From Acorus gramineus (lineage: Eukaryota > Streptophyta > Magnoliopsida > Acorales > Acoraceae), in contig CM060850.1 of NCBI GenBank assembly GCA_030737835.1, forward strand, positions 13,900,668 through 13,964,667: a DNA stretch of 64,000 bases, read 5' to 3'. This document shows, one piece after another, positions 7,376-64,000 of the stretch (position 1 is the first letter of the stretch; each line of letters begins with the position of its first letter). The notes under the pieces are model-generated. The model did not search any database. It was given only the letters and a program-made list of their open reading frames with translations, and had not been told where the DNA came from. A program made the position numbers and the translations under genes.

Positions 7376-7419
7376 GAATATTGGTGATTTGTGTTGATAA
7401 GGTTTTGCTTGAGAAGGGT

Positions 7420-10321: not shown

Positions 10322-10541
10322 GTATAACAATACTAAAAAAAATTGATATGTATGATAAATACTTTCATATCCTCTCAATCCCAGCGATTACCACGTGTTA
10401 TAACTCAATAAATAAATAAATAAAAATAAAAAGTGTGCAAATCAGATGAATGCGTGAATGATCGATTAAATGCATTAATGACCGGCGTGAATTTACCAAA
10501 CTACCCTGCTGGCGAAATTTTGTCGCCATCGTCCTTCTTTT

Positions 10542-10565
10542 TATATATATATATATATATATATA
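10542..10565. repeat. (TA)n microsatellite, empty target site of the Mutator-like element
   Basis: About twelve TA units lie between 'GTCCTTCTTTT' and 'GATAATCATCCCC'. In copy B the same left and right flanks border the 13.5-kb Mutator-like element, each with its own run of TA. Confidence 0.85.
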
Positions 10566-11599: not shown

Positions 11600-12129
11600 C
11601 TGGTAATAATCGGATTTAAGTTACTTGGTCATGTGGTTCAATCGACCTAATCAAATAATAATTGAATAGTTGTGACACATGTTCAACAAGGAAAGATAAA
11701 TATTAATCCATCATTATAAAAAAAACACATATTTGGGGGGGTAATATTAACTCATCATTATGTCTTTAAATCTTAGATGGTTTGGTTTTTCATTGAAGAC
11801 CAATTTATGTTTCACCAACTATATCTATTCAAATGCCAAGTGAAACTGAACATGATCAACTATATCTTATTCAATTACTGTTCTTATTAAAAAAAACTAC
11901 AAATTAAACATCACACATCAATTTATGCTTTAATCATTACAACTTGTATAACTTACAAATGCCAAGTGAAGTTGAACATGATCAACTACCTAGAAAACCA
12001 CTGCTACATAGTTAGATGCAGATATTTGATATCTGATGGTCTTCAAAATTCTCCAGGTCCCTGATTTAACTACTGCTTACATACTATTTTATCAAGAGTT
12101 GACTGGAAACTTGGTTATATTACATACTT

Positions 12130-15970: not shown

Positions 15971-16014
15971 GAATATTGGTGATTTGTGTTGATAAGGTTT
16001 TGCTTGAGAAGGGT

Positions 16015-16021
16015 CTTTATA
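16015..16021 (-). promoter_or_regulatory. TATA box of sulfotransferase copy B
   Basis: TATAAAG on the minus strand is about 45 bases upstream of the ATG at 15,970. It is identical in place and sequence to that of copy A. Confidence 0.6.
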
Positions 16022-16395
16022 GATGGAGATTAACACATATTTTTGGATATCTTGTCACTTTGATTTTAGTCCAGCTACCCTTCATTAATTAAGTTCGTCT
16101 AGTACTCTTTACATGTTCCACGTGGTTTGGGGTAGTTGGAATACTTAAAAGTGGTACAAATAGAGTATTCGTTTTTATAAAATTGATTTTTCTTTCAAGT
16201 AGATGAAAACACTCCCAAGTTAGGGTTGTATTTTTCTTCTAGATCTCTTTTGTTTTTTTTTTTTATCACAGGTCAGCCCTTGCCCGCCGCGCTTTGGTTC
16301 CGCTCCTGCAGGTGTAGCTAACAATATAGAATGGTTAGTTAATAATATACATAAGATGTATAATATTAATTAATTATATATACGATGAATGCACC

Positions 16396-22200: not shown

Positions 22201-23164
22201 AAGTACCATATCTTAGTGCAATTGGTGCCTTATTATATTTGGCCCAATGCACTAGACCTGACATTGCATTTTCAGTTAATTTATTTGCCAGATTTAGCTC
22301 TGCACCAACTCGAAGGCATTGGAATGGTGTGAAGCACATTTTTCGTTATCTTCGTGGAACGTCAGACATGGGTCTATTCTATGCAAAGGATTCCAATAAT
22401 GGTGCACAACTAAAGGGTTATGCAGATTCAGGATATCTTTCAGATCCTCACAAGGCTCGCTCACAAACAGGCTATGTATTCACTTGCGGTGGCACAGCAA
22501 TCTCTTGGCGATCTACGAAACAGACTTTGGTCGCCACGTCTTCTAACCACTCTGAGATTCTTGCACTCCACGAAGCAAGCCGGGAATGCGTGTGGATAAG
22601 GTCTTTGGTTCATCATATTCGTACTGCATGCGGACTATCTCTCATTACAGATGTTCCAACAACTATATATGAAGACAATGCAGCATGCATTGCTCAAATC
22701 AAAGGGGGATATATCAAGGGTGATAGAACAAAGCATATTTCTCCAAAATTCTTTTACACTCATGAGCTCCAGCAGAGACATGAAATTGATGTTCAACAAA
22801 TTCAGTCAAAGGACAATCTTGCAGATTTGTTTACTAAAGCTTTGTCGACATCAACATTCAAGAAGCTGGTGTATGAAATCGGGATGCGACGAGTTTGCGA
22901 CCAAAATTCTTGAAATCTTGTACTTATGAGGGGGAGTAATTTTTTATGACATTTTGCGAACTGTACTCTTTTTCCTTCGCCTAGGTTTTGTCCCATTGGG
23001 TTTTCCTGGCAAGGTTTTAATGAGGCAGTGTCAAACGCATACACTATTATACGATTAAGTTACATTGTACTCTTTTTCCTTCGCTTTGGTTTTTTCCCAT
23101 TGGGTTTTCCAAGCAAGGTTTTAATGAGGCAATTTTCTTAGCGTGGTGGTCATCCAAGGGGGAG

Positions 23165-36903: not shown

Positions 36904-36941
<38 letters not shown>
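36794..36941. other. Copy B sequence between the Helitron and the Mutator-like element, ending in (TA)n
   Basis: It matches 10,421-10,560 of copy A and ends in about sixteen TA units that form the left target flank of the Mutator-like element. The right flank, another TA run, is 50,461-50,494. Confidence 0.85.
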
Positions 36942-36945
<4 letters not shown>

Positions 36946-39698
36946 ACGATGGGGTGTGACTGTGCGCATAGTGCAACCCATCGTGCGCCCCTAATATGGG
37001 CCGTGTGATCGCTGGTCATGCGATCGCATAGTTCACGTTTTTTTTTAAAAAAAAAAAAAACAAATTGAAATCTCTCTCGCTGTCTCTCTCTCTCGCTGTC
37101 TCTCATCTCTCTCTCGAAACCATCTCTTTCGCAGTCCCCGTCGACGACGACTGCATGGACCCCGGCGACCGCGACTCCCGTCAACGATGACCGTGACCCC
37201 CGTTGACGACTGCACGGACCACACCTCGACGTCCCCTGCTGCGACCCCATCGGTGACCCCCTCTGCAACCCCATCGACGACCACCCTCCGGTCATTCGAC
37301 CGCGACCCCCGTCGACGACTGCACGGACCACCCCTCGACGTCCCCTGCTGCGGCACGTCCCCTGCTGCGACCCCATCGGTGACCCCCTCTGCAACCCCAT
37401 CGACGACCACCCTCCGGTCATTCCTCTCTCTCCCCCAAATAGCTTTTTTAATTTCATCTTTCTGTAAGTCTGTGTGAATATTTTTGTCTGAACATGTTTG
37501 AATGTGTATGATTTACAGCAAAATTTCATATGCTTGAATGTGTGATTGTGTAGGATTTTTGTTGAATTTCATATGGCTGAATATGTGTTTTTTCTTAACA
37601 GGGATTTCTTTGTTGAATGAATTTGTGGGTGTGGGTGTGTTTCTTTTTGTTTTTTTTTTAATGGTTTTTCTTGATTTCCAAGGTGTAGATCTTGGAGCTT
37701 CTCTTGGGTTGAGGAGGGCACACAGTTAGAATAATTAATATAATGATTCCTTCATCTTTTATGTTTCTATGATATCATAATAAAACTAAACAAAAATACA
37801 TTAAAATGGATGGATATTAAACATTCTGGTTTAACTTAACGATATAAATAAGGAAATGACGATGAGGTTTATTAAAGATTGGGGCAGTCAGTGTGTCCTT
37901 CATGGGAGGGAGCATTGTAATACAAGCATAGTACGCTTTGTTGTCTGTGTCGGTAGTTGGGTGTGAGTAGATATCTCTTTGTTTAATTTGAGCACTTCCT
38001 TTTCTATATAATACAATGGTAAAAAAAAACTCTTAACGATATAAATCGGCAAATAAGAAATTTTAAACAATATAAATGCTATTCCCTGTTGGTGTATTTA
38101 CCTGTCTTAGCCTCAGGTTAATCTTTTTTTTTTCCAAGTTCCATCTCTCAGGCTTCGACTGCTATTCTGTTCAAGTATTGGATTAGACCTGCTTTATTGC
38201 TAAGCTCCTCTCTAATTCTTAAGCAGATTGCCACCATAAAATAGTAGCAGTGTAATCCTCCTGCTGGCTTCATTTTAGATCTTTTTCTAGAAAGTTGAAT
38301 GATTCTCTATCTGGAAACAACATTGGTTTGTGCTTTAGCTTTATACTTCGGTAAAAACATCTCCAAAGAAAAAGCATTACAGTAATTATATTATCTTATC
38401 TAAAGTTTTTTCAGAGAGAAACGTTGCTTCAGAATTTCATTTGAAAGTGCATTTGCTCTTTCAAAACATATTAGTGTTTAATTCTTCATATTAGTTTCTA
38501 ACACACCCCAAATTATCATGGGTGAATGGAGATACTTGAAGAGCATAAAGTTTTTTTTTTATATTCTTTATGGTGAATGCAATTCTTTATTTTTATAATG
38601 ATTGAGGAAAAACCTTAATTGTTTTTTATTTATTTATTTATTTTTGATATAGTTCAAGTACTCCTGAACAACATGATTTTTGACACGGAGACATTAGCAG
38701 TTGCTTAAGTGTTGATTCCAATGTTAAGCCTTGTATATAAATTTTCTATACCTCAAGAAGCTAGAGTTGTCATTTGCTAGTTCTGTTATATACTTGTCCT
38801 TGAAGACATGGACGATGTATATGGTGTATTTGCGCTGAGGCTAAGCCTGTGAAATATCTTAGGTACGTTTGAGACTGATTCATCAGTTATGCCGTTTCCT
38901 TCTTTTTTTTCGTTCTTTATGAATAAATGCGATTCTTTATTTTATATGATTTAGGAAAAACCTTAATTGTTTTCTTTTTATTTAGTTTAAGTACATACTT
39001 TTCCTCGAAGTTGTCTTTACTTGAAAGACTCATGGATTTGGATTTGTTCATAATATAACAGTTTAATCATAATTTGAATGACAAAGATCTTTTCATTCTC
39101 TACATTGACTCAACATCAAATAATGTGTTCTTGCCATGGATTTGTTTGACTTCTAGTACTTTTGAATCACCTCATTTTTTTCCCATCTTGAAGGAATTAT
39201 GGGATTTGGAGAGTCTCTTGTTTAGATAGACTCTTTTTGTTCATGTGGGGTTTTAGTCATGTTTTTCTAATCCCATAGCGTCACCTTCCCATGTATGTGC
39301 TCATAGAGTTCTCTTTTGGTGGACTTGTGCATATATTTTATCAAGAGTGTAATTTGAATGAGGACACCTTTTGATCCATTGACTCAACATACCATAACAT
39401 GCTTATTTGATGTGGTTCGAATCATTAAAGTAGCTTATCTTAGGTGATATAGATAGAGATAAATCTCTTGTGCTTTATTTTGTTTGTGTTGTTGGAGCAT
39501 TCTGTACCTTTTGATATTATTGAAACTAATCATTTTGGTTACTTTACCAGAGAATAGCACAAATAAAGATGACATAGAGGAGACGTGCTTGCAGTCCAAG
39601 ATGAGGTGAATCTTCTAATCTAAACAAGGTAATATCTTATTAGCATGGACATGTTTAAAAATTCGTCAATTGTAAGTTATATTTAGAACAAGAAACTT
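36942..39698 (+). repeat. Left terminal inverted repeat
   Basis: It matches the reverse complement of 47,848-50,460 almost throughout. The GC-rich subterminal part (37,120-37,425) holds a tandem duplication of about 125 bp ('GCAACCCCATCGACGACC' twice) that is single in the right repeat. This explains most of the length difference. Downstream, the repeat contains a GT donor-like site (AACAAG|GTAATATC, about 39,629) that could start the transposase transcript. Open frames in it, mirrored at both ends, match no family. Confidence 0.88.
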
Positions 39699-40175
39699 CT
39701 TTCATACAGTAATATTTTGATTATAGTTGAAACATTTTTCACATTTTTTGGTTTACACACTCTTGTTTTATGATAGTCTCTTATTTTAGGAGACTTTCTT
39801 TATCATTTTTTAAGAGAGTCTTGTTTTAAGAGAATCAAATTTTTTCTCATGCAACTTGGGGAGTATCTTGTTTTAGGGGACTTTCTTTCAAGTTTTACAT
39901 ATCGTCCTCTCCTCTTTTGTTTTCAAATGGGTCTTAGCCTCCTTTTGTGAACGTGAGGTTCCAATTTTATTTACCTAATCATAACATAAGTATAACCTTT
40001 CCCTTATTTGTGCTATTACAATCGCGTTTTAAATTGATTTGGATTTGTTAGTTAACCCTGTGTAGATTACTTAGTCATCTTAATGTAGTTAATATTAGAT
40101 GAAACTGTTGTTGGTGTTATTATTTTTTATTTTCATCACTCCATGAACTCATTTGGTTCCACTACTTGATGTGCA
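39699..40175 (+). other. Transposase leader region
   Basis: AT-rich DNA between the left inverted repeat and the transposase. A TTGATGTGCAG just before the ATG (ending at about 40,176) is a good intron acceptor. The leader probably splices from a donor within the inverted repeat. Confidence 0.45.
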
Positions 40176-42327
40176 GTGAAAATGTTCAATTCTGAAGAAA
40201 TTGAGGCTGAAAATGTGGAAACATTGTATGGTGATGATGGTGAAAATTGGATTCCCGATGTTGATGATCAGGTTAAACCAGTGGTTGGAATGTCATTTGA
40301 ATCTCTTGAAGAAGCTGAGAAGTTTTATTTGAAGTATGCCAAGATTGCGGGCTTCGGGGTTCGAAAATCCTCTACAAAGTATCGAAACAAAGAGGGATCA
40401 AAGGAACTTTATTTGAGAGCTTTCGTTTGTTCCAAAGAAGGATTTAAAAACTCATCAAGCAGTAGCAGTGGCATTCATAAACCAAGTCGAGGACATACAA
40501 GATTAGGGTGCAAGGCTAAAATATCTTTCATAAAAGATGGTGAAATATGGATGGTTCGCAATTTTGTTGAAGGTCATGCGCATGTGTTGTGCACTCCTCG
40601 AAAAACACATCTTCTGAGATCACATAGAGAAGTGACAGATGCCCAAAAGTCTCTGATCCATACATTTAGAGGAGCAAATGTCAGCACCTCACAAACCGTC
40701 TCTATATTCGGCTTAGATTCCGGAGGATATCAAGATATAGGATGCACAGAAAGAGATATTCGGAACTATTTATCGAAGACTCAAAATGAAATGAAAGATT
40801 ATGATGCAGAATTGTTTTTAAATCATTTCAAAGAAAAAGCTGAAATGAATCCTTCTTATTATTTTGCATATGAAGTCGATGATGAGAACAGGTTAACACA
40901 TAGTTTTTGGGCTGATGGTGGAGCAAGAAAGGCATATGCATATTTCGGGGATGTAGTTGTGTTTGACACAACTTATAGCACAAATAAATATTCATTAGTA
41001 TGTGCACCCTTCACCGGAGTGAATCACCATTTTCAGTCTATTAATTTCGGTTGTGGATTATTAAAAGATGAGAAGATGGATTCTTTCTTGTGGCTTTTTG
41101 AAAAATGGCAAGAGGCAATGGGAAATTGTCCACCAAAAGCATTTATCACAGATCAAGATCCTGCCATAGGGGCTGCAATTGCACACTTATTCCCCAATGT
41201 TACTCACCGATTTTGTATATGGCACATAATGAAAAAGTTGTCAGAGAAAGTTGGTACAGCAGGTTACAGAAGTGAGTTTTTGGAGCCCTTCAAAGAATGT
41301 GTTTGAGGCAAGGTGGTGGGATTTAATTAGTTCATTTCAACTAGAACAGAATGAATGGTTGGCAACTCTATATCATATTCGTGAGAAGTGGATTCCGTTA
41401 TTCTTGAAAGACACATTTATGGCAGGGATGATGAGTAGTCAGCGCAGTGAAGCTCAGAATTCTGTGTTTGATAAATATTTCAATAAAAAACACAGTTTAA
41501 TTGAGTTTATTCATCTCTTTGAAAGGGCTCTAGAGCGTCAAAGATACAATGAATTAGTGGCAGATCATGGAACGCTTGATAAAACACCAGAAATTGTCAC
41601 TAATTATGCTATAGAGTTGCAGATGTCCCGCAGATACACTCACAAGATTTTCTACATGTTTCAGAAAGAGGTTATATCTTCTATGAATTATGGGTCAATG
41701 TTGAAGTATTCATCGAATGTGCAAGTGCATGTTGTGAAAAGATTGGGGGATACTACTATGAAATTTCGTGAAGTTACATATGATCCATCGAATGATGTAA
41801 TCAGTTGCTCATGCAAGATGTTTGAAAGTGAAGGCATTCCATGTGCACATATTATTGTTGTTCTGCGAAATAACTTCATCGATTCCCTGCCTGAAAATTT
41901 AATTCTTCAAAGATGGACCACTTCAGCTAAATGGAGGACAGTATATGATAACAATGGAGTGGAGCTTCAAGAATCCCAAAATATATCGTGTGGAAGAAAG
42001 AATCTTGAGATTGTGCGTGGCTTTGCAGAATGTTTAGATGATGCTCCCACTGAAGTTTGTGAAGCAGCAAGAGAAATGTTATGCAGTTTGCAAGAATTGA
42101 AGTTGTCACATAGTACTTCTGGTAGTAGCAATTCAAGCCAAAGAAGCATCCCTTCAGTTGTTAGTGTCCACCCACCAAATATTTCAAAAACGAAAGGAAG
42201 TGGAAAGAGATTGAAGGGAGGAAAAGAAATTGCTATGGAAGGCATAGGAAAGAGGAGAACTTGCAGTGTGTGTGGAAAAAAGGATAAACATAACGCGCGT
42301 ACATGTCCCAAGCTGAAAGAAATGTAA
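40176..42327 (+). CDS. FAR1/MULE-type transposase, one frame break
   Basis: This encodes about 715 residues that would cut and join the ends of the Mutator-like element in the nucleus. The N-terminal FAR1 zinc domain spans about residues 39-137 (FESLEEAEKFYLKYAK, C85, C112, EGHAHV). The MULE catalytic core holds D264 in VVFDTTY, D326/D328 in ITDQDPA, and CIWH (347-350). It continues past the break with the likely catalytic Glu in SSQRSEAQNS. Then come a SWIM zinc finger (CSCKMFESEGIPCAHI) and a final C-x2-C-x4-H-x4-C knuckle (CSVCGKKDKHNARTC). After FKECV a short segment that family members have before FEARWW is missing, and the frame shifts at about 41,300. The rest is open and well preserved. 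A domesticated FRS-like host gene is the alternative, but the flanking inverted repeats argue for a transposase. Confidence 0.88.
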
Positions 42328-42654
42328 GTTTCTTTTTTGTTTACACCAAAAATGTTAATTAAGTCATTATATTAATACATTGAAATATGGATTATTTCAG
42401 GTTATCACAGAATGAAACTCAACATTTTAATGAAACCCAAGCTTCCATGGAGTGATGTTTATGGTAAATGTTTGCTTCACAGTTGTTAAAGTTTAATTTC
42501 CTTCTCATAATGTTCCATAAAAGTGGAGATGTTTCATTTGTTATTTCAGGAACACTTGAAAAAGGGTGGTGCTTCTCAGATGGTGCTATTTAGTTGGTTT
42601 GGTTGTTCTTCAGATTTTGTTTCACCTGGAGATAGAAGTTCATGTATAGAATAT

Positions 42655-42935
42655 GTTGACATTGATGTATTAAAACAGGTTGATGTACTGTATTGGTCGA
42701 TGTTCATGTACTGAAATTGATTAATGTTTATGTTCATGTATTAACTTCTATTGATGTTGATGTATTAAAACAGGTTGATGTATTAAATTGGTTGATGTTC
42801 ATGTACTTAAATTGATTAATGTTTATGTTCATGTATTAACTTCTATTGATGTTGATGTATTAAACAGGTTTATGTTCATGTATTAACTTCTATTGATGTT
42901 GATGTATTAAATTGATTAATGTATGAGTGATGTGC
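42655..42935 (+). repeat. Tandem repeat after the transposase
   Basis: About two and a half units of roughly 100 bp, each with 'TTGATGTATTAAAACAGG' and 'ATTAATGTTTATGTTCATG'. The smaller unit TGATGTAT recurs inside. Confidence 0.85.
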
Positions 42936-43264
42936 TTCAATGAATATCAATGTGTTGGAATGTGTTTTGGTTTGAATGTGCATGTATGGTATTATGAATA
43001 TTTTGGAATGTAGCTTGGTGCGAATGTGATTGTCTTTGATTGAATGAATTTAAAGCACAAGATGTGAAAGCATATTTGAGGGAACTCCAACTATTTCATT
43101 CATTTTGGTTGTCAGAATACAATAAATCTTATTGATACAATGTTTATTGAACAAAAAACATAAAAAAAAAACTAGTATTGCTTCTGCTTCTTAGTTGGTC
43201 TGCTTCTGGTTGAGTTTCTGCATCCTGGTTGTGCTTCTGCTTGGTTTGGCTGACAATGCTCCTG

Positions 43265-44295
43265 GCCTGCATATACTTCTGCTGCTATTGCTGCTGCCCT
43301 ACCAGTGGTGCTGATACTGCTCCTTCCATGCTGCTGCTGCTGCTATTGCTCCTGCTGCTGCTGCTGCCATTGCAGGTGCTGCTGCTGCCCTTGCTCCTGC
43401 TGCTGCTGCTGCTGCTGCTACAACCTGCTGCTGCTCCTCCTGCATGTGGTGCTGCTACAACCTGCTGCAACAAGGTGCTGCTGCTGCTGCTGCTAGTGCT
43501 CCTGCTCTCGCTGCTCCTGCTTCTTGTGGTGCTACAACTCGAGCTGCTGCCATTGCTCCTGCTACTGTTGTTGCTGCTATTGCTGCTGCTGCTGCCATTG
43601 CTCTTGCTGCTGCTGCTGCTACTGCTACTGCTACTGCTGCTGCTGCTGCTCCTGCTGCTGCTGCTGCTCCTCCTGCTGCTGCTGCTGCTATTGCTGCTGC
43701 TGCTAGTGCTCCTGCTGCTCCTGCTGCTGCTGCTCCTGCTGCTGCTCCTGCTGCAGCAGCTCCTGCTGCTTGTGCTGCTGCAACAAGGTGCTGCTGCTGC
43801 CCTTGCTGCTGCTCCTGCTGCCCTTGCTCCTGCTGCTGCTGCTCCTGCTGCTTGTGATGCTGCTGCTTCTGCTGCTGCTGCAGCAGCTCCTACTGCTTGT
43901 GCTGCTGCAACAAGGTGCTGCTGCTGCCCCTACTGCTGCTCCTGCTGCTGCTGCTGCCCTTGCTCCTGCTGCTGCTGCTGCTGCTCCTGCTGCTGCTGCT
44001 GCCCTTGCTCCTGCTGCTGCTGCTGCTGCTCTTGCTACTGCTGCTGCCCTTGCTCCTGCTGCTGCTGCTGCTGCTGCTGCTAGTGCTCCTGCTGCAGCAG
44101 CTCCTGCTGCTTGTGGTGCTGCAACAAGGTGCTGCTGCTGCCCTTGCTCAAGTTGCTGCTGCTACTGCTGCTGCTATTGCTCCTGCTGCTGCTAGTGCTC
44201 CTGATGCAGCAGCTCCTGCTTCTTGTGGTGCTGCTACAACCTGCTGCAACAAGGTCTTGCTCCTGGTGCTGCCCTTGCTCCTGCTGCTGCTGCTG
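43265..44295. repeat. 1-kb CTG-rich compound repeat with higher-order units
   Basis: CTG triplets are broken by CTC, ATT, CCT and CTA variants. A higher-order block, 'CAGCAGCTCCTGCTGCTTGT' followed by 'GCTGCAACAAGGTGCTGCTG', returns at about 43,754, 43,880, 44,095 and, shortened, 44,207. Plus-strand frames give poly-Leu, poly-Ala and poly-Cys runs, which are by-products of the triplet. On the minus strand the repeat reads CAG. Just upstream on that strand the sequence VSPNQLITIQQQQQEQGQHQ could be the start of a Gln-rich exon. No ordinary gene is supported. Confidence 0.9.
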
Positions 44296-44299
44296 AATT

Positions 44300-45040
44300 G
44301 TAATCAACTGGTTTGGACTCACCTGCAGTTGCACAGATCCTCTGAATTGGCTGGCCCAAACAACCTAGGATGGACTGGTCCTGCCCTGGAATCAATGAAA
44401 GAAAATAAAATCACAATCACTGCCAGTTGCCACCTGACCTGGATTAGAATTAGAGAAAATTACCAGGAATCAGCTGGACCTTGTAATGGTACAAGGGTGG
44501 GAATTTTTTGGTAGGCTGCAGTTGGGCTTAAGAGAAGCTTGGAATGCATACTTGAAAGAAACTACACTGGACTGATGACTTGGATAGGAACAACTTGCTG
44601 AGGAACTGCACTTGAATGCAAAACCTGGACTGCAATGCTATACATGGGACTAGAATGAATACTTATATTGATCTATGCTTCAGAAATATATTCGGCATTT
44701 AACACCATCTTGTAAACACCAAACATTCAATCATTTTAAAACACTCATTTATCTATATTCAACCATTCACTCAACATTTACTCATTTAAATAAACACCAA
44801 GTATTCAGTTTTACACCATAAAAGCATTCAAACAACAAATACCTCCTAATGTTTCTGTTACAAATGCATTCAAACAACAAAATAAACCAACCATTCAATC
44901 TATTACACCATACAAACAACAATGTCTCACAACAACATCCTCCCCTATAGAAAATCATGTGACAGGAACCAGCTAACTTGATGAAAAGCACTCCCCTTCC
45001 TCAGCAACCCCAGCAACCAGCCAAATCATTAGCACAACAC
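44300..45040. other. Element interior after the CTG tract
   Basis: No recognised gene is seen. Several GT/AG-like borders on the minus strand (for example TGATTCCAG near 44,388) suggest spliced minus-strand transcripts, but no frame is convincing. Confidence 0.4.
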
Positions 45041-45109
45041 AGTTCCAGCAGCAGACTTTGATGAAAGAGTTCTATTTGCCTTCAACTGGGACAAGCCAAA
45101 GTCACAAAC
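45041..45109 (-). pseudogene. Protein-kinase exon fragment (Raf-like MAPKKK type)
   Basis: On the minus strand, after a TAATCCAG acceptor, 23 codons read VCDFGLSQLKANRTLSSK then SAAGT. This is the DFG motif and activation loop of CTR1/EDR1-type kinases, where the family has VCDFGLSRLK...LSSKSAAGT and goes on to PEWMAPEVL. Here the match stops at SAAGT and a stop codon follows three codons later. No neighbouring kinase exon (HRD loop or APE) is seen. It is a captured host-gene piece inside the Mutator-like element, in antisense orientation to the transposase. It has no kinase function. Confidence 0.75.
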
Positions 45110-45814
45110 CTGGATTAAAACAAGTATCAATATTGTCTAAAAAGATAAGGTAGTGTTGTAAAGAAAAAAGCTGGAGCTTCTGTTATAGCTAGTGCAATAT
45201 GAAAATTAAAAAAGAATATTTGTTATACTTCTTTTTTATATTGGTTTTTCTTTATTTATATTGTTTAAGAAGAGTAATGGCCTTGACGTTGCAAAAATCA
45301 CTCTCTCATTCAATGGGTTGCTCTTCCTTTTCTCTAAATCTATTTACATGATGTAGGCTAAAATGTGGGTTTTCAAGTAAATGTTTATACCTTTTTTTTA
45401 TTTCTCAAATCTCAAATTGGTCTTTGTTACCCTTATTTTTTGGTATTTCAGGTTTTAAAAATATTCTTTTCATTAGTGTCATCTTCCTTTCCCATTTGTA
45501 GGATTGATCTTCCTTTCCCTTTCCCATCATTTCAATGCATATTTTTTTAAAAGAATTGTTTAACAGCTTGTAGAAGATAATTTTGAAATATCAAAACAGG
45601 CATCTTGGCAGAGGTCCCTCTCCTAAATGATCAGATGAAGATTGAACCTAAAGATAAGAGTTGGTGTTTTTGAACATAACATGCCACAAATCAGAACTAC
45701 AGAAAATCATGTGAGAAGAGCATACAAACTGCACAATTTGCATATTTATCAACTGTTAAGGCCTGAACCCAACCCAAGAACCTAATAAGAACAAATGTAA
45801 TGCACCATACTGAC
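45110..45814. other. Element interior between two minus-strand exon candidates
   Basis: AT-rich, no recognised coding. It is intron-like if 45,815-45,899 and 45,041-45,109 are exons of one transcript. Confidence 0.35.
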
Positions 45815-45899
45815 CTTCGCAGCAGGTGCAGGTGCAGGTGCAGGTGCGGGAGAAGTAGCTTGGCCACCTATCCTCACACCCAGAGCTACACCTGGAAAC
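45815..45899 (-). other. Possible exon, proline/alanine-rich
   Basis: It is bounded by a TTTTTCCAG acceptor and an AAG|GTCAG donor on the minus strand. One frame is open and reads FPGVALGVRIGGQATS followed by five Pro-Ala pairs and AK. The repeated GCACCT units give the Pro-Ala run. I do not know the family. It may be another captured exon or part of an accessory gene of the element. Confidence 0.35.
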
Positions 45900-47847
45900 C
45901 TGGAAAAACGTAAATAACAGTCAAATTATATAGGCAAAGTTAAGTGATAGGCCAAAATAAATAGGGGAGATAAAATTTAAAAAACTGAAAAAACAATAAG
46001 AAAAAGATGATTTGAAAATACACATTAGACAAGGATATGCATGAGAGGGTCTGAGGGTGAGTCTTGAAACAGTTTCACAGTCATGTTAAAAAGTGAGAGG
46101 TGAAGGACCAGATGGCCCTCGAATGCTAACAGCCTGTCTACAGCCCATACAAGTTGCCAAATTTTCTCATGAAAAAACACCTGACCAGAAAATATTGTTA
46201 TGTACAGACATTACAAGCACAAATGAGAAGAAGAGAGCCATGGGCTATAAAATTGAGAATACTGGTAAATAAACCTTTTACAGTTAAACAACTTTTTTTG
46301 TGCATTCATGATTGTCATATTAATTTAAAATTGTAACCCAAACCAGCATTCATGACTGTCATATTAAATTAAAATTGCAACCCAAAAAAACTTCTTCCCA
46401 TGAGAAGCCGATTCAACTCCAAGGAGAATGGAGGCCCATGCTAGATGAGTTGCCAAAATGGATGACCACATGTTCTATACATAAGGCTCTCTTCCTACAG
46501 AGGTGACAAGTACTGCCCCAAACCAGTGAATAAATAACTCCTCAATGAACAATCTCCCATTGATAAACTCCACCCTTGTTTGCTTTAGCAATGAATTACT
46601 CTACAATAACTCTCTCGATCGCCTCCCAAATGTTGACAGAAACAAGAGCAACATCACTGAATCCTGCTTGGTTCCTCACTAACCAAATCACTTCCCAAAT
46701 TCTATTAAGTATTATGATATATGGAAAGTTTTGAACAGGGTCATTTCCATTTTTTTAATATTTAAAACAATATTTTGGAACCACAAATAGATATAAAACT
46801 CTAGTAATATCCATGGGTTCATTGTTTCAAGCAAAAAGTTCTACAATTGAGTATGGATTTTAATGAACTCAATATTCAATCATGCAGAATGCTTGAACAT
46901 AAGGAAAAACAATTTCCTAACAAAACAAAGAAACATTGGATCTTTTATGATGTCCTCAAATGTTTGATCTTGACCTTTTTATGAAATCGAGAGGCGTGGG
47001 AACCAATGTTCTCATAAACTCTCGGCACATGTCAGCTAGAAGTCTAGAATGGATTAATTGATAGCTTTTTAAATAATAAACATATAATAAAAACACACAT
47101 ATATACATACATAGATATACACGTGTGCGCATCGTGTGTGTGTGTGTTAATTGAAAATACAAATAAATAAAATAAATGCAAGAAAAAAAAAAGATTAATC
47201 TGAAGCACAAAACTGAATTTTAGTATCCCAGCATAAAATCTAATCTAGAGAGTTTGAGCACCCATTTGGTTTAAGAAAAGAAAAAACAAAGAACATAAAT
47301 ATTAAAGAAGGATTATATTCCACATAATTCTCTGGAAATTGCTTTCAAATATTACCTCGGCTTTGCAGGAGTAAATTCAAACACGATGGATTTTATTAGG
47401 GAAATTCCATACAGACAGACTCGATTCAAGATCTTGTGAATGGCGTGAAAATTGAACTATTGGTGACTAAAAATGATAGACAAGTCAAACAAATAATCAG
47501 CAAGGTATGGGGTTAGTACACATGTCCTAGGCATCCTGATATGAGATAATCTTTTTCTTTATTTTCTATAACAGAAAATAAAATTCACTGTCCCCAGACC
47601 ACAAAATTTTTTCAGTGGCAAACAATTTAGACCAACATATCTGCTTGCCTATATATAGACCAGGTTTTGTCATCACTATATGATGTTTGTCCAAGTGGGC
47701 GATATATCTCCTTCTCTTATGCCCCAAGTCCAGTTATACACTTATACAAACCATATTCATATACTCAAATTTTTCTTTCTTTTTTCCCTCTTTCTTTTGC
47801 TCATTTTAACATCCTTCTCTCTTAAAAGATGCAAGAACATACAAATA
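45900..47847. other. Element interior, mostly non-coding
   Basis: On the minus strand near 46,550-46,720 a weak LINE-like tail (RIWEVIWLVRNQAGFSDVA) can be read with stops. A GT/TA microsatellite lies at 47,095-47,150. A copy of 'CAGCATTCATGACTGTCATAT' follows a near copy 40 bases earlier (46,307-46,360). Confidence 0.4.
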
Positions 47848-50456
47848 AAGTTTCTTGTTCTAAATATAACTTACAATTGACGAATTTTTGAACATGTCCA
47901 TGCTAATAAGATATTACCTTGTTTAGATTAGAAGATTCACCTCGTCTTGGACTGCAAGCACGTCTCCTCTATGTCATCTTTATTTGTGCTATTACCTGGT
48001 AAAGTAACCAAAATGATTAGTTTCAATAATATCAAAAGGTACAGAATGCTCCAACAACACAAACAAAATAAAGCACAAGAGATTTATCTCTATCTATATC
48101 ACCTAAGATAAGCTACTTTAATGATTCGAACCACATCAAATAAGCATGTTATGGTATGTTGAGTCAATGGATCAAAAGGTGTCCTCATTCAAATTACACT
48201 CTTGATAAAATATATGCACAAGTCCACCAAAAGAGAACTCTATGAGCACATACATGGGAAGGTGACGCTATGGGATTAGAAAAACATGACTAAAACCCCA
48301 CATGAACAAAAAGAGTCTATCTAAACAAGAGACTCTCCAAATCCCATAATTCCTTCAAGATGGGAAAAAAATGAGGTGATTCAAAAGTACTAGAAGTCAA
48401 ACAAATCCATGGCAAGAACACATTATTTGATGTTGAGTCAATGTAGAGAATGAAAAGATCTTTGTCATTCAAATTATGATTAAACTGTTATATTATGAAC
48501 AAATCCAAATCCATGAGTCTTTCAAGTAAAGACAACTTCGAGGAAAAGTATGTACTTAAACTAAATAAAAAGAAAACAATTAAGGTTTTTCCTAAATCAT
48601 ATAAAATAAAGAATCGCATTTATTCATAAAGAACGAAAAAAAAAGAAGGAAACGGCATAACTGATGAATCAGTCTCAAACGTACCTAAGATATTTCACAG
48701 GCTTAGCCTCAGCGCAAATACACCATATACATCGTCCATGTCTTCAAGGACAAGTATATAACAAAACTAGCAAATGACAACTCTAGCTTCTTGAGGTATA
48801 GAAAATTTATATACAAGGCTTAACATTGGAATCAACACTTAAGCAACTGCTAATGTCTCCGTGTCAAAAATCATGTTGTTCAGGAGTACTTGAACTATAT
48901 CAAAAATAAATAAATAAATAAATAACAATTAAGGTTTTTCCTCAATCATTATAAAAATAAAGAATTGCATTCACCATAAAGAATATAAAAAAAAAACTTT
49001 ATGCTCTTCAAGTATCTCCATTCACCCATGATAATTTGGGGTGTGTTAGAAACTAATATGAAGAATTAAACACTAATATGTTTTGAAAGAGCAAATGCAC
49101 TTTCAAATGAAATTCTGAAGCAACGTTTCTCTCTGAAAAAACTTTAGATAAGATAATATAATTACTGTAATGCTTTTTCTTTGGAGATGTTTTTACCGAA
49201 GTATAAAGCTAAAGCACAAACCAATGTTGTTTCCAGATAGAGAATCATTCAACTTTCTAGAAAAAGATCTAAAATGAAGCCAGCAGGAGGATTACACTGC
49301 TACTATTTTATGGTGGCAATCTGCTTAAGAATTAGAGAGGAGCTTAGCAATAAAGCAGGTCTAATCCAATACTTGAACAGAATAGCAGTCGAAGCCTGAG
49401 AGATGGAACTTGGAAAAAAAAAAGATTAACCTGAGGCTAAGACAGGTAAATACACCAACAGGGAATAGCATTTATATTGTTTAAAATTTCTTATTTGCCG
49501 ATTTATATCGTTAAGAGTTTTTTTTACCATTGTATTATATAGAAAAGGAAGTGCTCAAATTAAACAAAGAGATATCTACTCACACCCAACTACCGACACA
49601 GACAACAAAGCGTACTATGCTTGTATTACAATGCTCCCTCCCATGAAGGACACACTGACTGCCCCAATCTTTAATAAACCTCATCGTCATTTCCTTATTT
49701 ATATCGTTAAGTTAAACCAGAATGTTTAATATCCATCCATTTTAATGTATTTTTGTTTAGTTTTATTATGATATCATAGAAACATAAAAGATGAAGGAAT
49801 CATTATATTAATTATTCTAACTGTGTGCCCTCCTCAACCCAAGAGAAGCTCCAAGATCTACACCTTGGAAATCAAGAAAAACCATTAAAAAAAAAACAAA
49901 AAGAAACACACCCACACCCACAAATTCATTCAACAAAGAAATCCCTGTTAAGAAAAAACACATATTCAGCCATATGAAATTCAACAAAAATCCTACACAA
50001 TCACACATTCAAGCATATGAAATTTTGCTGTAAATCATACACATTCAAACATGTTCAGACAAAAATATTCACACAGACTTACAGAGAGATGAAATTAAAA
50101 AAGCTATTTGGGGGAGAGAGAGGAATGACCGGAGGGTGGTCGTCGATGGGGTTGCAGAGGGGGTCACCGATGGGGTCACAGCAGGGGACGTCGAGGGGTG
50201 GTCCGTGCAGTCGTCGACGGGGGTCGCGGTCGTCGTCGACGGGGGTCGCAGTCGCCGGGGTCCGTGCGGTCGTCGTCGACGGGGACTGCGAGAGAGATGG
50301 TTTCGAGAGAGAGAGAGAGACAGCGAGAGAGATTTCGATTTGTTTTTTTTTTCGTTTTGTTTTTTTAAAAAAAAAAACGTGGACCGTGCGATCGCACGGT
50401 CCACGTTAGGGGCGCACGATGGGGTGCACCGTGCGCACGGTCACACCCCATCGCGT

Positions 50457-50460
<4 letters not shown>
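47848..50460 (-). repeat. Right terminal inverted repeat
   Basis: This is the reverse complement of 36,942-39,698, with one copy of the GC-rich 125-bp unit. The outer 85 bases form two palindromes: a perfect 32-bp one (50,376-50,407) and a near-perfect 37-bp one (50,417-50,453). The corresponding left tip has the same plan with several changes. Confidence 0.88.
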
Positions 50461-50497
<37 letters not shown>

Positions 50498-56853: not shown

Positions 56854-58213
56854 GGGGGGTAGTCAATTAGGATTTTCATGGACAAAATGTCCATCCTCGT
56901 GGATTTGTAAATCTTGTGTTTTTCAATCAGAACTTTGGTTCATGGACAAAAAGTCCAGCGTTATTCGATTGAGACATTATTTCATGAACAAAAAGTCCAG
57001 CGTTATTCGATTGAGACATTATTTCATGGACAAAAAGTCCAGCGTTATTCGATTGAGACATTATTTCGTGGACATAAAGTCCAGCGTTATTCGATTGAGA
57101 CATTATTTCGTGGACATAAAGTCCAGTGTTATTCGATTGAGACATTATTTCGTGAACATAAAGTCCAGTGTTATTCGATTAAGACATTATTTGGTGGACA
57201 AAAAGTCCAGCGTTATTCAATTGAGACTTCTCATAGTAGACATTTTGTCATGTGTTATTCAATTTAAACAGGATTTGTGAAGACTTTCATAAGTGATGGA
57301 TTCTTGTGGACTTTTGTGGACTTTAGAAAGAGAAATATAAAGGAAAAAGTTTTTTCAAAATCCCACCCAAATGGGTGGGATTCTCATGGACTTTTATTCC
57401 AACTTTGTGAATATTTCTTCTTTTTTTCTTTCAACAAATCTACTTTATGATTTTTATTACATGCCTTTCATATTTTTATTCACATTTTTTTTCTTTATTT
57501 ATCATCTTTTTTTTATGAATGTTCATATGTATGAAATATTCCTATCACCTCATATGTTTGATGAATATATGAGAATGATAGATTATATTATATATGCTAG
57601 ATCATCCACAATTATTTTTTAAAATATAGATTTTTTTATCATATATTTGATTATATGTATAATGCTTGATTTGATTTTCCTTGAAGATGTTTCTATTATT
57701 GTACAATATAGATGTATATATATATTGTTTATAATGTTTAAACATATATAAAAGTAAAAAGATATATTTACATATATGAAATATACTGATTGCTTTTATT
57801 TTATTTATATGGGTATCAATAATTCATGTTGAATTTGAATATTTGAGTTCTTTATTTGTTATTTTAAAATTCTAAAAATATTTTTGTGTTTATTAATAGA
57901 AATCCAGATGTGAAAAGAGTCAATATCTGAAAGTCTGTGAAAGTCCATGAGAGTGATTTATGAAAGTCTACAAAAGTCTGTGAAAGTCCATGAGAGTGAT
58001 TTGTAAAAGTCTACAAAAGTCTGTGAAAGTCCATGAGAGTCAGTCTGTGAAAGTTTGCAAAAGTCTGTGAAAGTCCATGAGAGTAAATTTGTGAAAGTCT
58101 GCAAAAGTCTACGAAAATCTGCAAAAGTCTGTGAAAGTCTGCAAAGTCTACAAAAGTCCATCACTTAAATAATGTCCACAAAAATCCATCAGAGTCCGTA
58201 TCGACTACCCCCC
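56854..58213. mobile_element. TA-flanked DNA transposon with subterminal repeats, non-autonomous
   Basis: 1,360 bp between TA dinucleotides (56,852-56,853 and 58,214-58,215). Inverted ends: GGGGGGTAGTCAATTAGGA on the left and GGGGGGTAGTCGATACGGA on the right (minus strand). The left subterminal part is a 42-bp minisatellite; the right is a shorter 'AAAGTCTGTGAAAGTCCATG' repeat field (57,925-58,170). The centre is AT-rich and has no transposase. Superfamily unknown. A TA target duplication fits Tc1/mariner, but the G-rich tip is unusual for plant Stowaway elements. Confidence 0.7.
56935..57240 (+). repeat. 42-bp minisatellite, seven units
   Basis: TTATTCGATTGAGAC recurs every 42 bases from 56,961. 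Each unit holds the palindrome TGGACAAAAAGTCCA or its ATAAA-centred variant. 42 is a multiple of three, so all frames stay open and give false repeated proteins (14-residue units such as VQRYSIETLFHGQK). Confidence 0.95.
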
Positions 58214-58219
58214 TAAGAC

Positions 58220-58440
58220 TGTAATTATATTAAAATAATTAAAAATAAGGAAAAATGAAAAAAAAATAAATAAATAAATAAATAAAAATAAAAATAAAAA
58301 TGTTTGAATTTGTGCCTTGGAATTTGCGCCCCACCCACAGAACAACTCCGACCCATCATGGTCCGCTGCTCCGCCGCGCATCTCCCTCACCCCGGATGAC
58401 CATCTCCGCCTCCGCGACCACCACGTACTCTAACCCCGGA
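58220..58440 (+). other. Transition from AT-rich DNA to GC-rich LINE sequence
   Basis: AAT-rich microsatellite at 58,255-58,300, then a sharp rise in GC. The LINE 5' end may lie near 58,305, but no defined border is seen. Confidence 0.45.
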
Positions 58441-61400
58441 TGGCCATCAAGAAGTATTTTTTAGGCTCGCTGGGTGGAACGGGAAGCAAGGAAGGAGGGC
58501 TGGTGGGTGCGGAGGAAGCGCGGTGGAAGAGAGTCGAGAGCGGCGGTTTCTGCAGATTGACGAAGGGCCATCGGAAAGGAAGGCGCTAGGGGGGGGGGAG
58601 GGGGGGCGAGATCGGGGGCTCCTAACTTCCATGGCTCCAGATGTTTTAGGTGCCTCGGAACCGGACACTGGCGGCGGGACTGCAGGGAGCCTCTCATCTG
58701 CCTCGGATGCAAGGGAACGGGACACCGAGCGTTCGCGTGCACAAAGGTCAGATGCCCTGATACCCGAAGTCCCGAGGTTGTGACGGCGGAGGCAATTCAG
58801 ATCCAACTGGGGGATAACTTCAATCCATGCGAGGAGGAACGAGCACTTCGGTGCTGCGTGGTGGCAACCGCCCCCTGGTTGGTCTCTAACTGAAGAGGAG
58901 GTCCGGTGGGTGGTGGAAGACAGATGGGGGACGAAACATTGGTCTCTTGATAGATCGCTGGGACCTGGCAGGTATCTTCTAAAGGTGATGGGTCCTCGAC
59001 TTCAGGGTCAGATGGTGCGTCGGGGATCCATTATGGGTTGGGGAGGCTCCATGATCCTGGCGGCATGGTCTCCAGAGTTCGGAGCAACGCCGTCGGAAAC
59101 ATATAGGTGGGAGATCAGACTGGGGGGGCTGCCTCTCGACTGGCAATTGATAGATTGTCTTAGGCAGCTCATGTCCGGGTTCGGCAAGATCACAGATGTG
59201 GGTCGGAAGGGGATAGACAGTCACGGGGAAGCCTTTGCGGAATTCACGCTGGTGACGGGGGTGAAAAGGACGTGGCCCCCGAACATGATGGCGGCATACG
59301 GACGCGAGGCCTTCCTGATCCGCATCGACGCGATGAGCACAGGCATGGCATCTAAACGTACGTGGGCCGACTTAGTTTGAGACCAACCGGAAACGTGTTC
59401 CAGTTCCTCGTCGAGGGCGGAGGGTCGCGGACGGAGGGCACAACGTAGGAGGAAGAACACCAGCCGAGTCTCTGGTTCGGCTCGGCGTGAGCCGTGCCGA
59501 GAACGGGGGAGGTCGCAGAGAAAGTACGAGGAAAGTACGGAGGCTCCAATACAATCGGTTCACGTCGAGGAGCGGAACACGCAAAGTGTAGGTCAGACCT
59601 CGGGCCCATAAATCCGGTCAGAGATACACCGAGCGTCGCCAGAGAAGATAAACAGGAGATCCCCTCCCTCTGACACGCTAGTATCAAGTCCACGCGACCA
59701 GGCACGTGACAACGTTGTCTCTCAAGTTCTAGAGATTCCAGAGACTCCTGATGGTGATAGGGGTAATGGACCGGATGGTGGCGTTCATGGGCCGGGCCTT
59801 CTGGGCCGATTGCGAACCACCAATTCACCTGGAGCAATATGAGAGAAGTGCCGTCTATTGCGAGACTAGACATGGTGTTGATTGACGAATAATGGGAAGG
59901 TCTATTCCCGGGCTGTGGAATTCGGCGGCTGCCACGGGCAGTCTCTGATCATCTTCCGCTCCTCCTTGAATCAGAGATGTGCAGAAGACCTCATGGACTA
60001 TTTCGTTTCGAATCTTGGTGGTGTCGGTATCGGATTTCAGAAGGAAAAAGGAATGAAAGGGGTCCCGTCTTCCTTCCTCCTCGGCTCCTACGGTGGTGGT
60101 TGGTGCGTGTGTGGGGGTTCTTCGGATGCTCGAATCCGGAGAGCTGCGCCTTGGTAGGACTCGGTCGGATCGTCTCTCGGAATGGGTGGTGGGGGATTTC
60201 GTTCTTGGCTGAGGCCGACGGGTCCTCAGGAGGATTCAGGTGTGGTTGTGATCGCCATCTTCTTTTCTCAAAAAAGCAAAAAAAGTAGGGGCGGATTTGG
60301 TCGCCTTCGTGGGGAGGTTAAGGGTCTCCGCTCTGAGACACGGATATACTGTATACAGAGGTGAAGACAGGGATCCTCTTTTACTTCGAGGACCTGACTA
60401 AAGGAGAATTAGAACTGAAGTGGGCTAGGGAAGGGCCGGCTAGTTGGGTTTAGCCACCTGGTGGGGGGGTGACCAGTTGTGGTTAGCCGCCTGGTGTCTA
60501 GTTTAATTTGTGCTAGGTAGAGTTTGGGCTTGGTTTTTGGCAGAGGTTTAAACTGGGTTTAACCTGGATTTTGGAGAGTGGATTTGGAGAGTGGTTTGGT
60601 GTAGGAAATGGGTTTCTCTCACTTTTCTCTCAAGGGTTTGAAGTGGTGGTGTGGCTTGATGGTTGGGAATGTGGGTGGTTGGGGGTTATTAATGGGTATT
60701 GAATGTGAATTGATTCTGAATTAGTTGCCCCCCCCCCCCCTATTTATAGTAAAAAAAAAGGGGTATAGAAATGTCCACTAGACAATAGATCAAAATGGGT
60801 AATAAAGTGCTTGATTTGATCTCCCATTAGATCTTTGTTCTCTGACAGTGTCCAGGTGACGGGCAGCTAATGGTATTTAGCCGCTCAGTGAGGGGCGGCT
60901 ACTCTCAGGTAGCCACCCCCATCATAACCTGCCATACGTCTCATCCCTGACAAGCGGTGGCTTGAGTCGGTTACTAAGGATGAACCAGCTAAGATGGGGC
61001 GGCTAGAAGGGACAATCCGCCGCAATCATGCTTGCATTATGTCCCATCCAGGAAGGCGGTTTGGGGTCAGTCAGGGGGGCGGCTAGTTGAAACTAGTCGC
61101 CTGGTATGAGGCGGCTACTCTCAAGTAGCTGCCCCTGTCCAGGTCCTAGGTTTGCCTAAGGGTTTGGACCAGGGTTTTCGGTTTTAGTTTCTAAGGGAGT
61201 TTTCTATTAGATGTCCAAATGTAGTTGTTTCTTAAGTTTTACTTGAAGTATTTTTTGTCTCTTTGAATGGTCAAAATTAAGGTATCTACAGGTGGTGCGA
61301 GATCGAAGGGGTGGAAGGACTGATTCAAAACTCCTGGAATTCAAGCGCTAGCAGACTAAAAGGGGCTCGGCGGGTGGCCTTTAAACTACGACGTTTGAAG

Positions 61401-64000
61401 AGAGTCTTGAAGCAATGGATCGGGGCAGTAAGAACAGCCAGAGCAGAACACAAGGCATCCCTTCTCCTAACCATCCAGGTTTTTCACACTACAGAGGAAA
61501 CAGAGCCACTCATAGAGGAGGAGAGATCAAACAGGTGTAATGCAAAAAGGGAGCTTGCGGAGTTCCTTAAACATGAAGAGATTGAATGGAGGCTGAAATC
61601 AAAAACACTTTGGCTGAAAGCGGGAGATAACAACAAGGCATTTTTTCATTGAGCGACGAGCCAACGGAGGCAGGTGAATCACATTGCAAAAATTCAGTCG
61701 GGGAGAGGGTGTGGGAGGAGCAGGAGGAGATTAAGTCGAATTTAATAGAGCATTTTAAGCACTCCTTTTGTAAAAGAAGGGGATGGAAGCCGGGTTGGGA
61801 GGATCGGGAACTGCCTCGCTTGAATGCAGATCAACTGGAGCTATTGGAGGCACCGTTTGCGAAGGTCGAAGTGCACCGGGGCATTGCAAAGGCTGAGGGG
61901 GATAAGGCCCCGGGCTCGGATGGCTTCGGACTAATTTTCTACCAACGTTTCTGGTCCATAGTGAAGGAGGACGTGATGGATATGTTTCAGGAGTTCCACA
62001 CGGGCACGCAAAGTGTGGGTTGCTTGAACGCATCTCATTTCGTCCTGATTCCAAAGAAGGAGGGTGCATCAAGGGTGGAAAATTTTCGGCCAATCTGTTT
62101 GGTTAATGGAGCGTACATAATCGTGGCCAAAGTTTTGGCGAACAGACTGAAACATGTGTGTAGTGACTTGGTGGAACCCTCTCAAGTAGCGTTCTTGCCA
62201 AGACGGCTGTTGCAAGAGGGGTTCATCTCAGCGCAGGAGCTAGTTTCAGTGCTGCAGAAGGACAAGAGAAGAGGGTTGCTATTCAAGTTAGATTTTGCTC
62301 GAGCATACGATAGTGTGGATCGCAATTTCCTTCTGTTTTCTCCTAGAAATGCATGGATTTCAGCCAAGATGGATTCGTATGGTGCATCAATGCATAGACA
62401 CAGCGAAGGCCTCGCTATTGGTGAACGGAGAGGTTTCATATTTCTTCCCCCTTAACAGGGACTGAGACAGGGCGACCCACTCTCACCCATCCTCTTTGTG
62501 ATCATGGCGAATGTTCTTAGTCGACTGTGCGCGAAGGCTGCGGAAGCAGGATAGATAGCCGGTCTTGCGGGCTCCTCGACGAGGAGAAAAGTGTTGATTC
62601 TACAATATGCGGATGACACGATCCTTCTGTGTGAAGCTAACACAAGTTACGTGAGGGGATTTCGTTTCATCCTGATCTGTTTTGCATTGCTCACGGGTTT
62701 ATCGCTTAACATGAACAAAAGCTCCATGCACGGGATCAATACTTTGGCGGAGGAGGAGTTTCATCTGGCTGAGACTATGGGTTGTGCGGGAGGTGAATTC
62801 CCTGTCAAATATCTGGGCCTTCCGCTAGTCAAAGGTCGAATAACGAAGGAGCATTGGGTACCATTGATAGACCGGTTCGAGAAGAGGCTTGCGGGAGGAA
62901 GGGGAAGATGCTGAGTTGGGGAGGGAGGGTCACACTATTACAGACGGTATTGTCAAACTTACCGATTTTCTATCTATCGGTGTTTCAAATCCCGGGGGGT
63001 ATGTTAGATCGAATTGACCGCATTCGAAGGAGGTTTCTATGGCAAGGAGGTGAGGCAGACCACAAAGCTCCACACATGGTCGATTGAGAGACCGTGTGCC
63101 GGCCCAAAAGAGAGGGAGGGCTAGGAATTCTCTATCTAAAGGTCATGAACAAAGCGTTGTTGGCTAAATGGGTGTGGATCTGGATTTCGAGACGCAGATC
63201 TCTATGGTCTCAAATCATGGCGGACAGATATGGTGGAGAGGGTATAGGGGAGCGGCGTTGGCCCGCAATGAACTCAAGAATGACTCCTTTGTGCAAAAGT
63301 ATGTTCGTGGACCGTGGAATAATCGAGGCAGCTCTAGTCTGGAAACTCGGAGATGGCAGAGCGACTCAATTTTGGACTGACAGATGGGCAGGAGAGGAGC
63401 AGTTATGTGACTTCGGACATATTCAGGCTTGCTTCCAAGAAGGATGGGGCAGTTAACGAACTTTTCAGCGCTTCTCCCGGTCAATGGCAAATTGAGCTCC
63501 TTCGATCAAGGCTTACAGAGGCAGAAACAGCACAGTATGCGGGCTTATTGGAGAGTGTAGGGACGCTGAGTATCTAAGAGGGAGTGGAGGATGAGCTGAG
63601 ATGGAAACCACAGGCCGCCAGGGGGTTTTCAGTGAAGAGCGCATACCAATGGTGGCGAACGCCAACCACCACCACCACCACGGCTTGCAGACTCTTCAAA
63701 CAGATATGGAGGCCCAACATTCCGCTGAAGATTAAGGTGTTCACTTGGTTCGTGTCACTTAAAAGACTTATAACGAAAGCTTACATGTCTAGGTGGGCTC
63801 CAAATGATTCCACTGCTTGCTCCCTATGCGCGGACCCTTTGGAGAACATTCACCATCTCTTTTGTGTGTGTTCGGTGGCGAAGGAATTTTAGGAAAAGGT
63901 GGGGAGGCACACTGGACTCGAGACCAACTTTCAATCTCTGGATGAATTATGGGAAGCAGGTGAGGCGTTGCGGAGGACGACAGGAGGTAGACTAGAAGCA
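58441..64000 (+). mobile_element. Plant L1-like LINE, degenerate, 3' end outside the window
   Basis: Parts in order: an ORF1 with two C-x2-C-x4-H-x4-C zinc knuckles (58,642-58,740; CFRCLGTGHWRRDC and CLGCKGTGHRAFAC), and a DUF4283-like RNA-binding region (58,910-59,380; PGRYLLKVMGPRLQ, LGGLPLDWQLIDCL). ORF2 follows with only the C-terminal part of the endonuclease (from QFTWSNMREVPSIARLD, about 59,820, to DHLPLLLE, about 59,960). After the solo LTR come the pre-RT region and RT (RPICLVN, LFKLDFARAYDSVD, LRQGDPLSPILF, YADDTILLCEA at about 62,606) and zf-RVT (from about 63,600). Frame changes and stops occur throughout, so it is inactive. Confidence 0.9.
60362..61290 (-). mobile_element. Solo LTR inserted in the LINE
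   Basis: 929 bp, on the minus strand TGTAGATACCTTAATTTTGA to CCTGTCTTCA, with a TATA box CTATAAATAGGGG near 60,740-60,752. The TGTAGATACC start is common in plant Ty3/gypsy LTRs. It splits the LINE between IYCIQR and WCEIEGVEGLIQNSW. The letters AGGTG appear at both borders, overlapping the TG end, so the target duplication is not fully settled. Its inside has repeated GGCGGCTA/TAGCCGCC motifs. It is a fossil with no coding part. Confidence 0.75.

Follow-up and report, generated by a model that had tools for sequence, protein, structure and literature searches.

The locus described here raises the question of what kind of unit holds a transposase gene between two inverted arms of more than 2.6 kb, and of how such arms stay alike. 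It lies in a 64,000-nucleotide stretch of the Acorus gramineus genome (assembly GCA_030737835.1, contig CM060850.1, positions 13,900,668 to 13,964,667 of the forward strand; the whole stretch is called the window), where a first-pass annotation made from the letters had placed at 36942..50460 a Mutator-like element (MULE) that encodes a FAR1-type transposase of its own between oversized inverted repeats. Domains, arms and termini agree with that description, and the coordinates were right to 1 bp (36943-50459). In all probability, the element is a full-length, now non-autonomous member of a MULE family that targets TA microsatellites, has a Jittery/FAR1-type transposase and carries kilobase-long inverted arms. 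The (TA)n target specificity, absent from the first-pass annotation, places the element in a known class. The features on which the argument draws are as follows:

36943..50459, + strand: whole Mutator-like element (13,517 bp), lying within a (TA)n microsatellite; defined by arms, termini and two empty sites
36907..36942, no strand: left flanking TA run, 36 bp
50460..50495, no strand: right flanking TA run, 36 bp
36943..39698, + strand: left inverted arm, 2,756 bp
47848..50459, - strand: right inverted arm, 2,612 bp
37353..39698, + strand: inner arm block, with 8 substitutions and 2 single-base indels relative to the other arm (99.6%)
50378..50459, - strand: terminal 82 bp of the right arm, which as single-stranded DNA fold into two adjacent hairpins (z -6.2); CpG-rich subterminal region
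40170..41306, + strand: transposase N-terminal frame, with FAR1 and MULE (DDE) domains
41302..41303, + strand: site of a 26-bp gap relative to two related copies, where the reading frame is broken
41233..42327, + strand: transposase C-terminal frame (stop to stop), with SWIM domain
10542..10565, no strand: empty site, (TA)12, at the paralogous locus (not part of the element)

Transposase, termini and insertion into TA repeats

A FAR1/MULE transposase with a DDE-type core and a SWIM finger had been read from the translations, and Pfam domains for MULE (PF10551, E 7e-29), FAR1 (9e-17) and SWIM (3e-8) are found in it. Its only clear defect had been located near 41,300; 26 bp are indeed absent near 41,302 when compared with two related copies (C5 and C68/L038), no further stop or break was seen in the reading frame from the start region (~40,180) to the stop (42,327), and the C-terminal frame terminates at the same residues as those of intact relatives. 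Intact frames of 734-745 codons are present in 10 of the 29 related loci examined, and these evolve under purifying selection: between the window's N-terminal piece and the ten intact copies, synonymous divergence (dS) is 1.04-1.15 and the ratio of non-synonymous to synonymous divergence (dN/dS) is 0.11-0.13. Against the sister copy C81, dN is 0.014 and dS 0.031, a ratio of 0.45.

Transposase protein matches number at least 111 in the genome, a lower bound obtained from the best 109 of 1,305 candidates. In a tree of 19 proteins, 11 element transposases form one clade (support 100/100) that excludes eight further FAR1 proteins from this genome, which are presumed to include host FRS genes (none is a named FRS protein) and of which the nearest stands on a long branch at 44% identity. 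A domesticated single-copy FRS/FAR1 gene, an alternative that the first-pass annotation had itself raised, is ruled out by these matches, by the terminal repeats and by the separation of the multicopy clade. With an N-terminal FAR1 domain, a SWIM finger and one transposase gene, the element is typed by its domains as a Jittery/FAR1-type MULE. A sequence search of the PDB with the transposase matched zero chains at E up to 1.

The terminal motif, allowing up to 3 mismatches, has 268 matches in the genome (123 forward and 145 reverse; a complete count, with 100 places listed), as opposed to 0 for a reversed-pattern control. A separate search, in which the best 40 of 444 candidates were scored, gives a lower bound on repeated termini. 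From 45 loci chosen by terminus similarity came 119 matches to the ends; 63 were kept at a score of at least 86, and the 56 dropped were mostly the palindrome read on the opposite strand, with a few real but worn ends (L049, L058, L068). A (TA)n run, defined as at least 10 bp of TA repeat within 6 bp of the end, adjoins 54 of the 63 ends, compared with 422 of 127,948 window positions (0.33%) under the same rule. Both ends could be read at 24 loci, 19 of which have TA on both sides; 23 of these elements measure 471-687 bp and one 1,503 bp, although the loci were picked by terminus similarity, several of them for a paired look, so that the proportion of small elements does not represent the genome as a whole. 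The termini of the window element are thus common to a family of 0.47-0.69-kb elements that likewise sit in (TA)n, and it is by the (TA)n flanks and the small non-autonomous copies sharing its ends that the element belongs to the TA-microsatellite-targeting MULEs. At the tip itself, the predicted fold of the outer 82 bp has a z score of -6.2, with 0 of 200 shuffles as good.

Searches with the flanks found both of them side by side at C4:13.7427 Mb, and the right flank also at 10.5 kb of the window. The joined flanks are identical to the first of these loci at 716 of 773 columns, with (TA)14 in the place of the element, and to the second (window 10.4-11.2 kb) at 714 of 772 columns, with (TA)12 in its place. 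The element was inserted into a (TA)12-14 microsatellite, and two paralogous loci still have that microsatellite without interruption; one of them lies within the window because the locus is tandemly duplicated and the element entered one unit only. A DDE-domain transposase, terminal inverted repeats (TIRs) and a clean empty site together mark the element as a MULE.

Long inverted arms in two subfamilies

Near-identical inverted repeats of about 2.6 kb had been described for the element. The length holds, at 2.76 and 2.61 kb, but near identity is confined to the inner 2.35 kb, where an inverted repeat of 2.3 kb at 99.6% is far outside chance expectation. The outer ~350 bp of the two arms are 83.8% identical over 351 columns; of 24 mismatches, 21 are transitions, 17 of them in CpG, and 3 are transversions. 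The ratio of observed to expected CpG is 1.53 in this outer part (right arm) versus 0.38 in the inner arm, and CpG methylation decay accounts for much, perhaps not all, of the contrast, as 7 of the 24 mismatches fall outside the CpG-transition class and their rate is still above that of the inner arm. Because the arms reach to ~0.5 kb upstream of the transposase start, the transposase promoter and leader probably lie in the arms, and hence at both ends of the element.

Related copies fall into an A-type, with arms like those of the window, and a B-type, a second subfamily exemplified by C68. Among A-type copies, the arms of C5a (C5:13.694-13.706 Mb) are 88% identical over 1,278 and 404 columns, those of C10 (1.886-1.893 Mb) are 96% and 90% identical over 1,330 and 389 columns, and C5b (C5:14.408-14.421 Mb) has inverted arm matches by coordinates only. 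At the position of the inner arm boundary (window 47848), a segment of ~0.93 kb that is absent from the window is present in C52 (L083, C52:1187903-1188828) and in the copy at C4:15.99 Mb (L086); ~10 bp are repeated on either side of it in C52, an insertion common to the two copies.

When the DNA upstream of the intact transposase copy L012 was used as a query (the best 40 of 169 candidates were scored, so that counts of inverted pairs are lower bounds), an inverted partner was found at C68 1430834-1431579. This B-type element spans 1430081-1443465 (~13.4 kb), ends in TA runs, has arms that are 99.4% identical over 1,501 columns and retains an intact transposase frame. At least four further B-type inverted pairs have overlapping query parts (C10:47-70 kb, C11:8.69 Mb, C2:16.34 Mb and C4:21.14 Mb), and a transposase match is enclosed by those at C10:47-70 kb and C2:16.34 Mb; the distal arm of the B-type pair on C10 is incomplete, with 98.0% identity over 759 columns and no B terminus. 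Inverted neighbours at C6:19.29 Mb and C2:1.52-1.55 Mb were rejected as arm pairs, their query parts being non-overlapping. Twelve B-type termini were counted in the genome. In one TA tract, an A-type small element (L091, C10:71113-71935) immediately adjoins the end of a B-type one.

Blastn finds no match of at least 60 bp between the arm region of the window and the C68 arms, the transposases of the two lineages differ by a dS of ~1.05, and upstream of the transposase 13 of 15 related loci tested have no match to the window's arm. Long arms, of 1.5-2.75 kb, are therefore found in two subfamilies of this genome with unrelated arm sequences. The suggestion of a distinct lineage with oversized termini is upheld within this genome to the extent that both subfamilies have long arms; some related copies are without them.

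How the arms stay alike

Over the arm segment common to the three elements, identity within an element is 99.1% for the window, 99.3% for C10 and 93.0% for C5a, whereas comparison of the window with C5a or C10 gives 84.5-87.6% and that of C5a with C10 87.6-90.1%. In an arm tree, each of the three elements has its two arms as sisters (supports of 0.95, 1.00 and 0.93), the window pair resting on a zero-length branch. Because arms are alike within elements and only 84.5-90.1% identical between them, these comparisons place the doubled-arm state before the split of the window, C5a and C10, with arm-to-arm copying since. Arm identity therefore probably reflects homogenisation, of which intra-element gene conversion, for example during gap repair, would be the likeliest cause. 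In the mechanism proposed, the FAR1-type transposase of an intact relative would bind the conserved hairpin-forming termini, excise the element and paste it into TA repeats; the two arms would act as mutual templates, breaks or gaps in one being mended by copying the other, and conversion within each element would keep its arms near-identical while the arms of separated subfamilies diverge beyond recognition. It is tentatively suggested, as one possibility, that this is a lineage in which kilobase arms are a maintained working part, with the promoter region and terminus at both ends, where conversion renews the ends and the two arms of an element evolve concertedly, with complete turnover from one subfamily to another. 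Such an element could mend a damaged end from its mirror copy.

Several observations weigh against this account and against the family assignment that underlies it. An insertion within pure TA repeats hides any target-site duplication (TSD), and with it the 8-11-bp mark of the superfamily; 9 of the 63 ends have no TA run; and kinship to Jittery is putative, being drawn from domains. C10 and the right end of C5a have no recognisable termini. Both long arms are found in four of the seven large A-type copies (the window, C5a, C10 and, by coordinates, C5b), one long arm in two (the left in C81 and the right in C52, both interrupted), and neither in the copy at C4:15.99 Mb. Since arm limits also differ, the window arm stopping at 39,698 and that of C5a reaching the equivalent of ~40,060, each lineage might have doubled its arm anew from short-armed ancestors, through repeated events that copied the 5' region, inverted, to the 3' end. 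This is held to be rather unlikely: other insertions have broken up both C81 and C52, and C81 is also cut short within the transposase, making loss of an arm as likely as original absence, and the homologous arms present in duplicate in the window, C5a and C10 indicate that the doubling is old.

The right arm of C52 is as near to the window's left arm (99.3%) as is the window's own right arm (99.1%), and for the window copy alone arm identity could reflect the youth of the copies and not conversion. It might be extended to all copies that long terminal repeats are simply copied along with the element, young copies from one founder having identical arms with no conversion needed; the right arm of C52 and L042, at 99.1-99.2% identity to the window's left arm, about equal its arm-to-arm identity, and the arm of C81 is 97-98% identical to it. 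This explanation appears doubtful, as the homologous arms of C5a and C10 have diverged from the window's by 12-16% and yet are 93.0% and 99.3% alike within each element, the two C68 arms agree at 99.4% despite a sequence unrelated to that of the window arms, and descent alone cannot keep arms alike that were doubled before the window, C5a and C10 parted. Misassembly of a long palindrome is a very improbable source of the near-identical arms: long inverted repeats are hard to assemble and the analysis was made from the assembly alone, but the arms show 10 differences over 2.35 kb and diverge strongly over the outer 350 bp, and similar two-armed copies exist at other loci. Scarcely credible, finally, is a local inverted segmental duplication around an FRS gene with no transposon involved. 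In its favour, the region around the element is tandemly duplicated and contains sulfotransferase genes, but the termini named in the first-pass annotation as a search query are repeated genome-wide, and a local duplication without other copies is rejected on the 268 motif matches, the TA flanks at 54 of 63 ends, the multicopy transposase clade and the precise empty sites (unless these are deletions).

Arm homogenisation by conversion, the preferred reading, also bears on age. Recent activity had been proposed from arm identity, which is rejected as a transposition clock, since arms match better within elements than between divergent elements. Recent activity is only partly supported, the better grounds being the empty site in the duplicated locus and the sister copies at 97-99%. 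The age bound set by the empty site is loose, because the tandem units are 98.2% identical over 2.2 kb of gene segment but 92.5% identical at the immediate flanks of the element.

Known MULE families, element interior and surrounding locus

The comparisons below refer to the portions of the cited papers that were available. TA-targeted MULEs with a Jittery-like transposase are already known, as are FAR1-type MULE families of 12-14 kb. In Medicago truncatula, MuTAnT and AutoMuTAnT are (TA)n-targeting MULEs in which small hairpin-forming non-autonomous copies accompany an element with a Jittery-like transposase (PMC4486113); the present family is like them in these respects and in its G-rich ends. 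AutoMuTAnT differs in its length of 4,873 bp, its five-exon gene and its short TIRs (mean 47 bp, 144 bp in the reference copy), kilobase arms go unmentioned in the available text, and the MuTAnT end mask is by eye unlike the ends of the window family, which is thus not MuTAnT proper (PMC4486113). The SaTar/AgS-MULE elements of guayule and rice, including rice Micron, are likewise (TA)n-targeted MULEs with transposase-bearing partners, and SaTar elements stack side by side in TA tracts, much as the two elements at C10:71.1-71.9 kb do; AgS-MULE1 differs in having 5.3 kb and 400-bp TIRs, and FAR1 is named 0 times in that text (PMC5907723). Small, clustered, (TA)n-targeted MULE-like elements are also known as the Ac-mMITEs of pineapple, where they are very abundant but no transposase-bearing partner was found (PMC8449440), so that such a partner is useful to have here.

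As for the transposase, Jitvine-1 and Jitvine-2 of grapevine are Jittery-like multicopy families of similar size range (11.9 and 14.4 kb), for which the table gives neither TIR length nor TSD (PMC2528002). CitMule of citrus shares FAR1, MULE and SWIM domains and is Jittery-related, but is ~6.9 kb long with only short degenerate TIRs and 9-bp TSDs (PMC4334395). MULE TIRs range over 14-500 bp in the text of a survey and up to 640 bp in its table (PMC6446971), and in a work on arthropods the text gives TIRs of 13-1,193 bp, with a maximum of 1,527 bp in the table (PMC13359780). The unusual feature is therefore arm length, at 1.5-2.75 kb here and in the C68 subfamily versus 14-640 bp in the MULE survey; searches of open-licence papers, in the portions available, found no MULE with longer arms. 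In the available survey literature, TIR length is said to vary greatly for reasons that are not clear. Arms several times above the surveyed range, recurring in old and young copies, offer a testable case for arm conversion, and they raise the questions of whether both arms hold a promoter and whether read-through hairpins of 1.5-2.7 kb feed small-RNA silencing.

By description only, the element can also be set beside the FARE foldback elements of Arabidopsis, with which it shares long inverted repeats, palindromic termini (here the two hairpins of the outer 82 bp) and a MULE-type transposase. FARE elements have inverted repeats of typically ~550 bp and palindromic termini, and large members, of up to ~17 kb, carry a transposase; their arms are shorter than those described here, and they are not known to target TA repeats. 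FARE is mentioned in PMC4486113 and PMC3169594.

Two further features lie in the element interior:

43214..44294, no strand: CTG/CAG-rich low-complexity stretch
46720..47451, no strand: 732-bp unit with at least 8 other copies at 95-96%

The former, of 1.1 kb, gives rise to long poly-Leu, poly-Gln or poly-Ser frames, and the latter is probably a separate repeat, unclassified, nested in the element. Capture of a host gene in the interior (44,300-47,840) is unsupported: all 52 of the 52 matches listed are repeated or partial copies (the best 40 of 57 candidates were scored, making counts lower bounds), no wider search for a coding parent gene having been made. An Rfam search of the whole window gave no match to a structured RNA.

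The tandem duplication in the window consists of units at 4751-11754 and 13707-51695, each with one sulfotransferase gene (6013-7459 and 14607-16054, both on the minus strand). The second unit is enlarged by insertions that include the Mutator-like element and a Copia-type fragment, with polyprotein fragments at 20636-22913 (RVT_2 domain). The stretch at 58000-64000 is GC-rich (~50%), contains frames with DUF4283 and reverse-transcriptase (RVT_1) domains, and is probably a long interspersed nuclear element (LINE).

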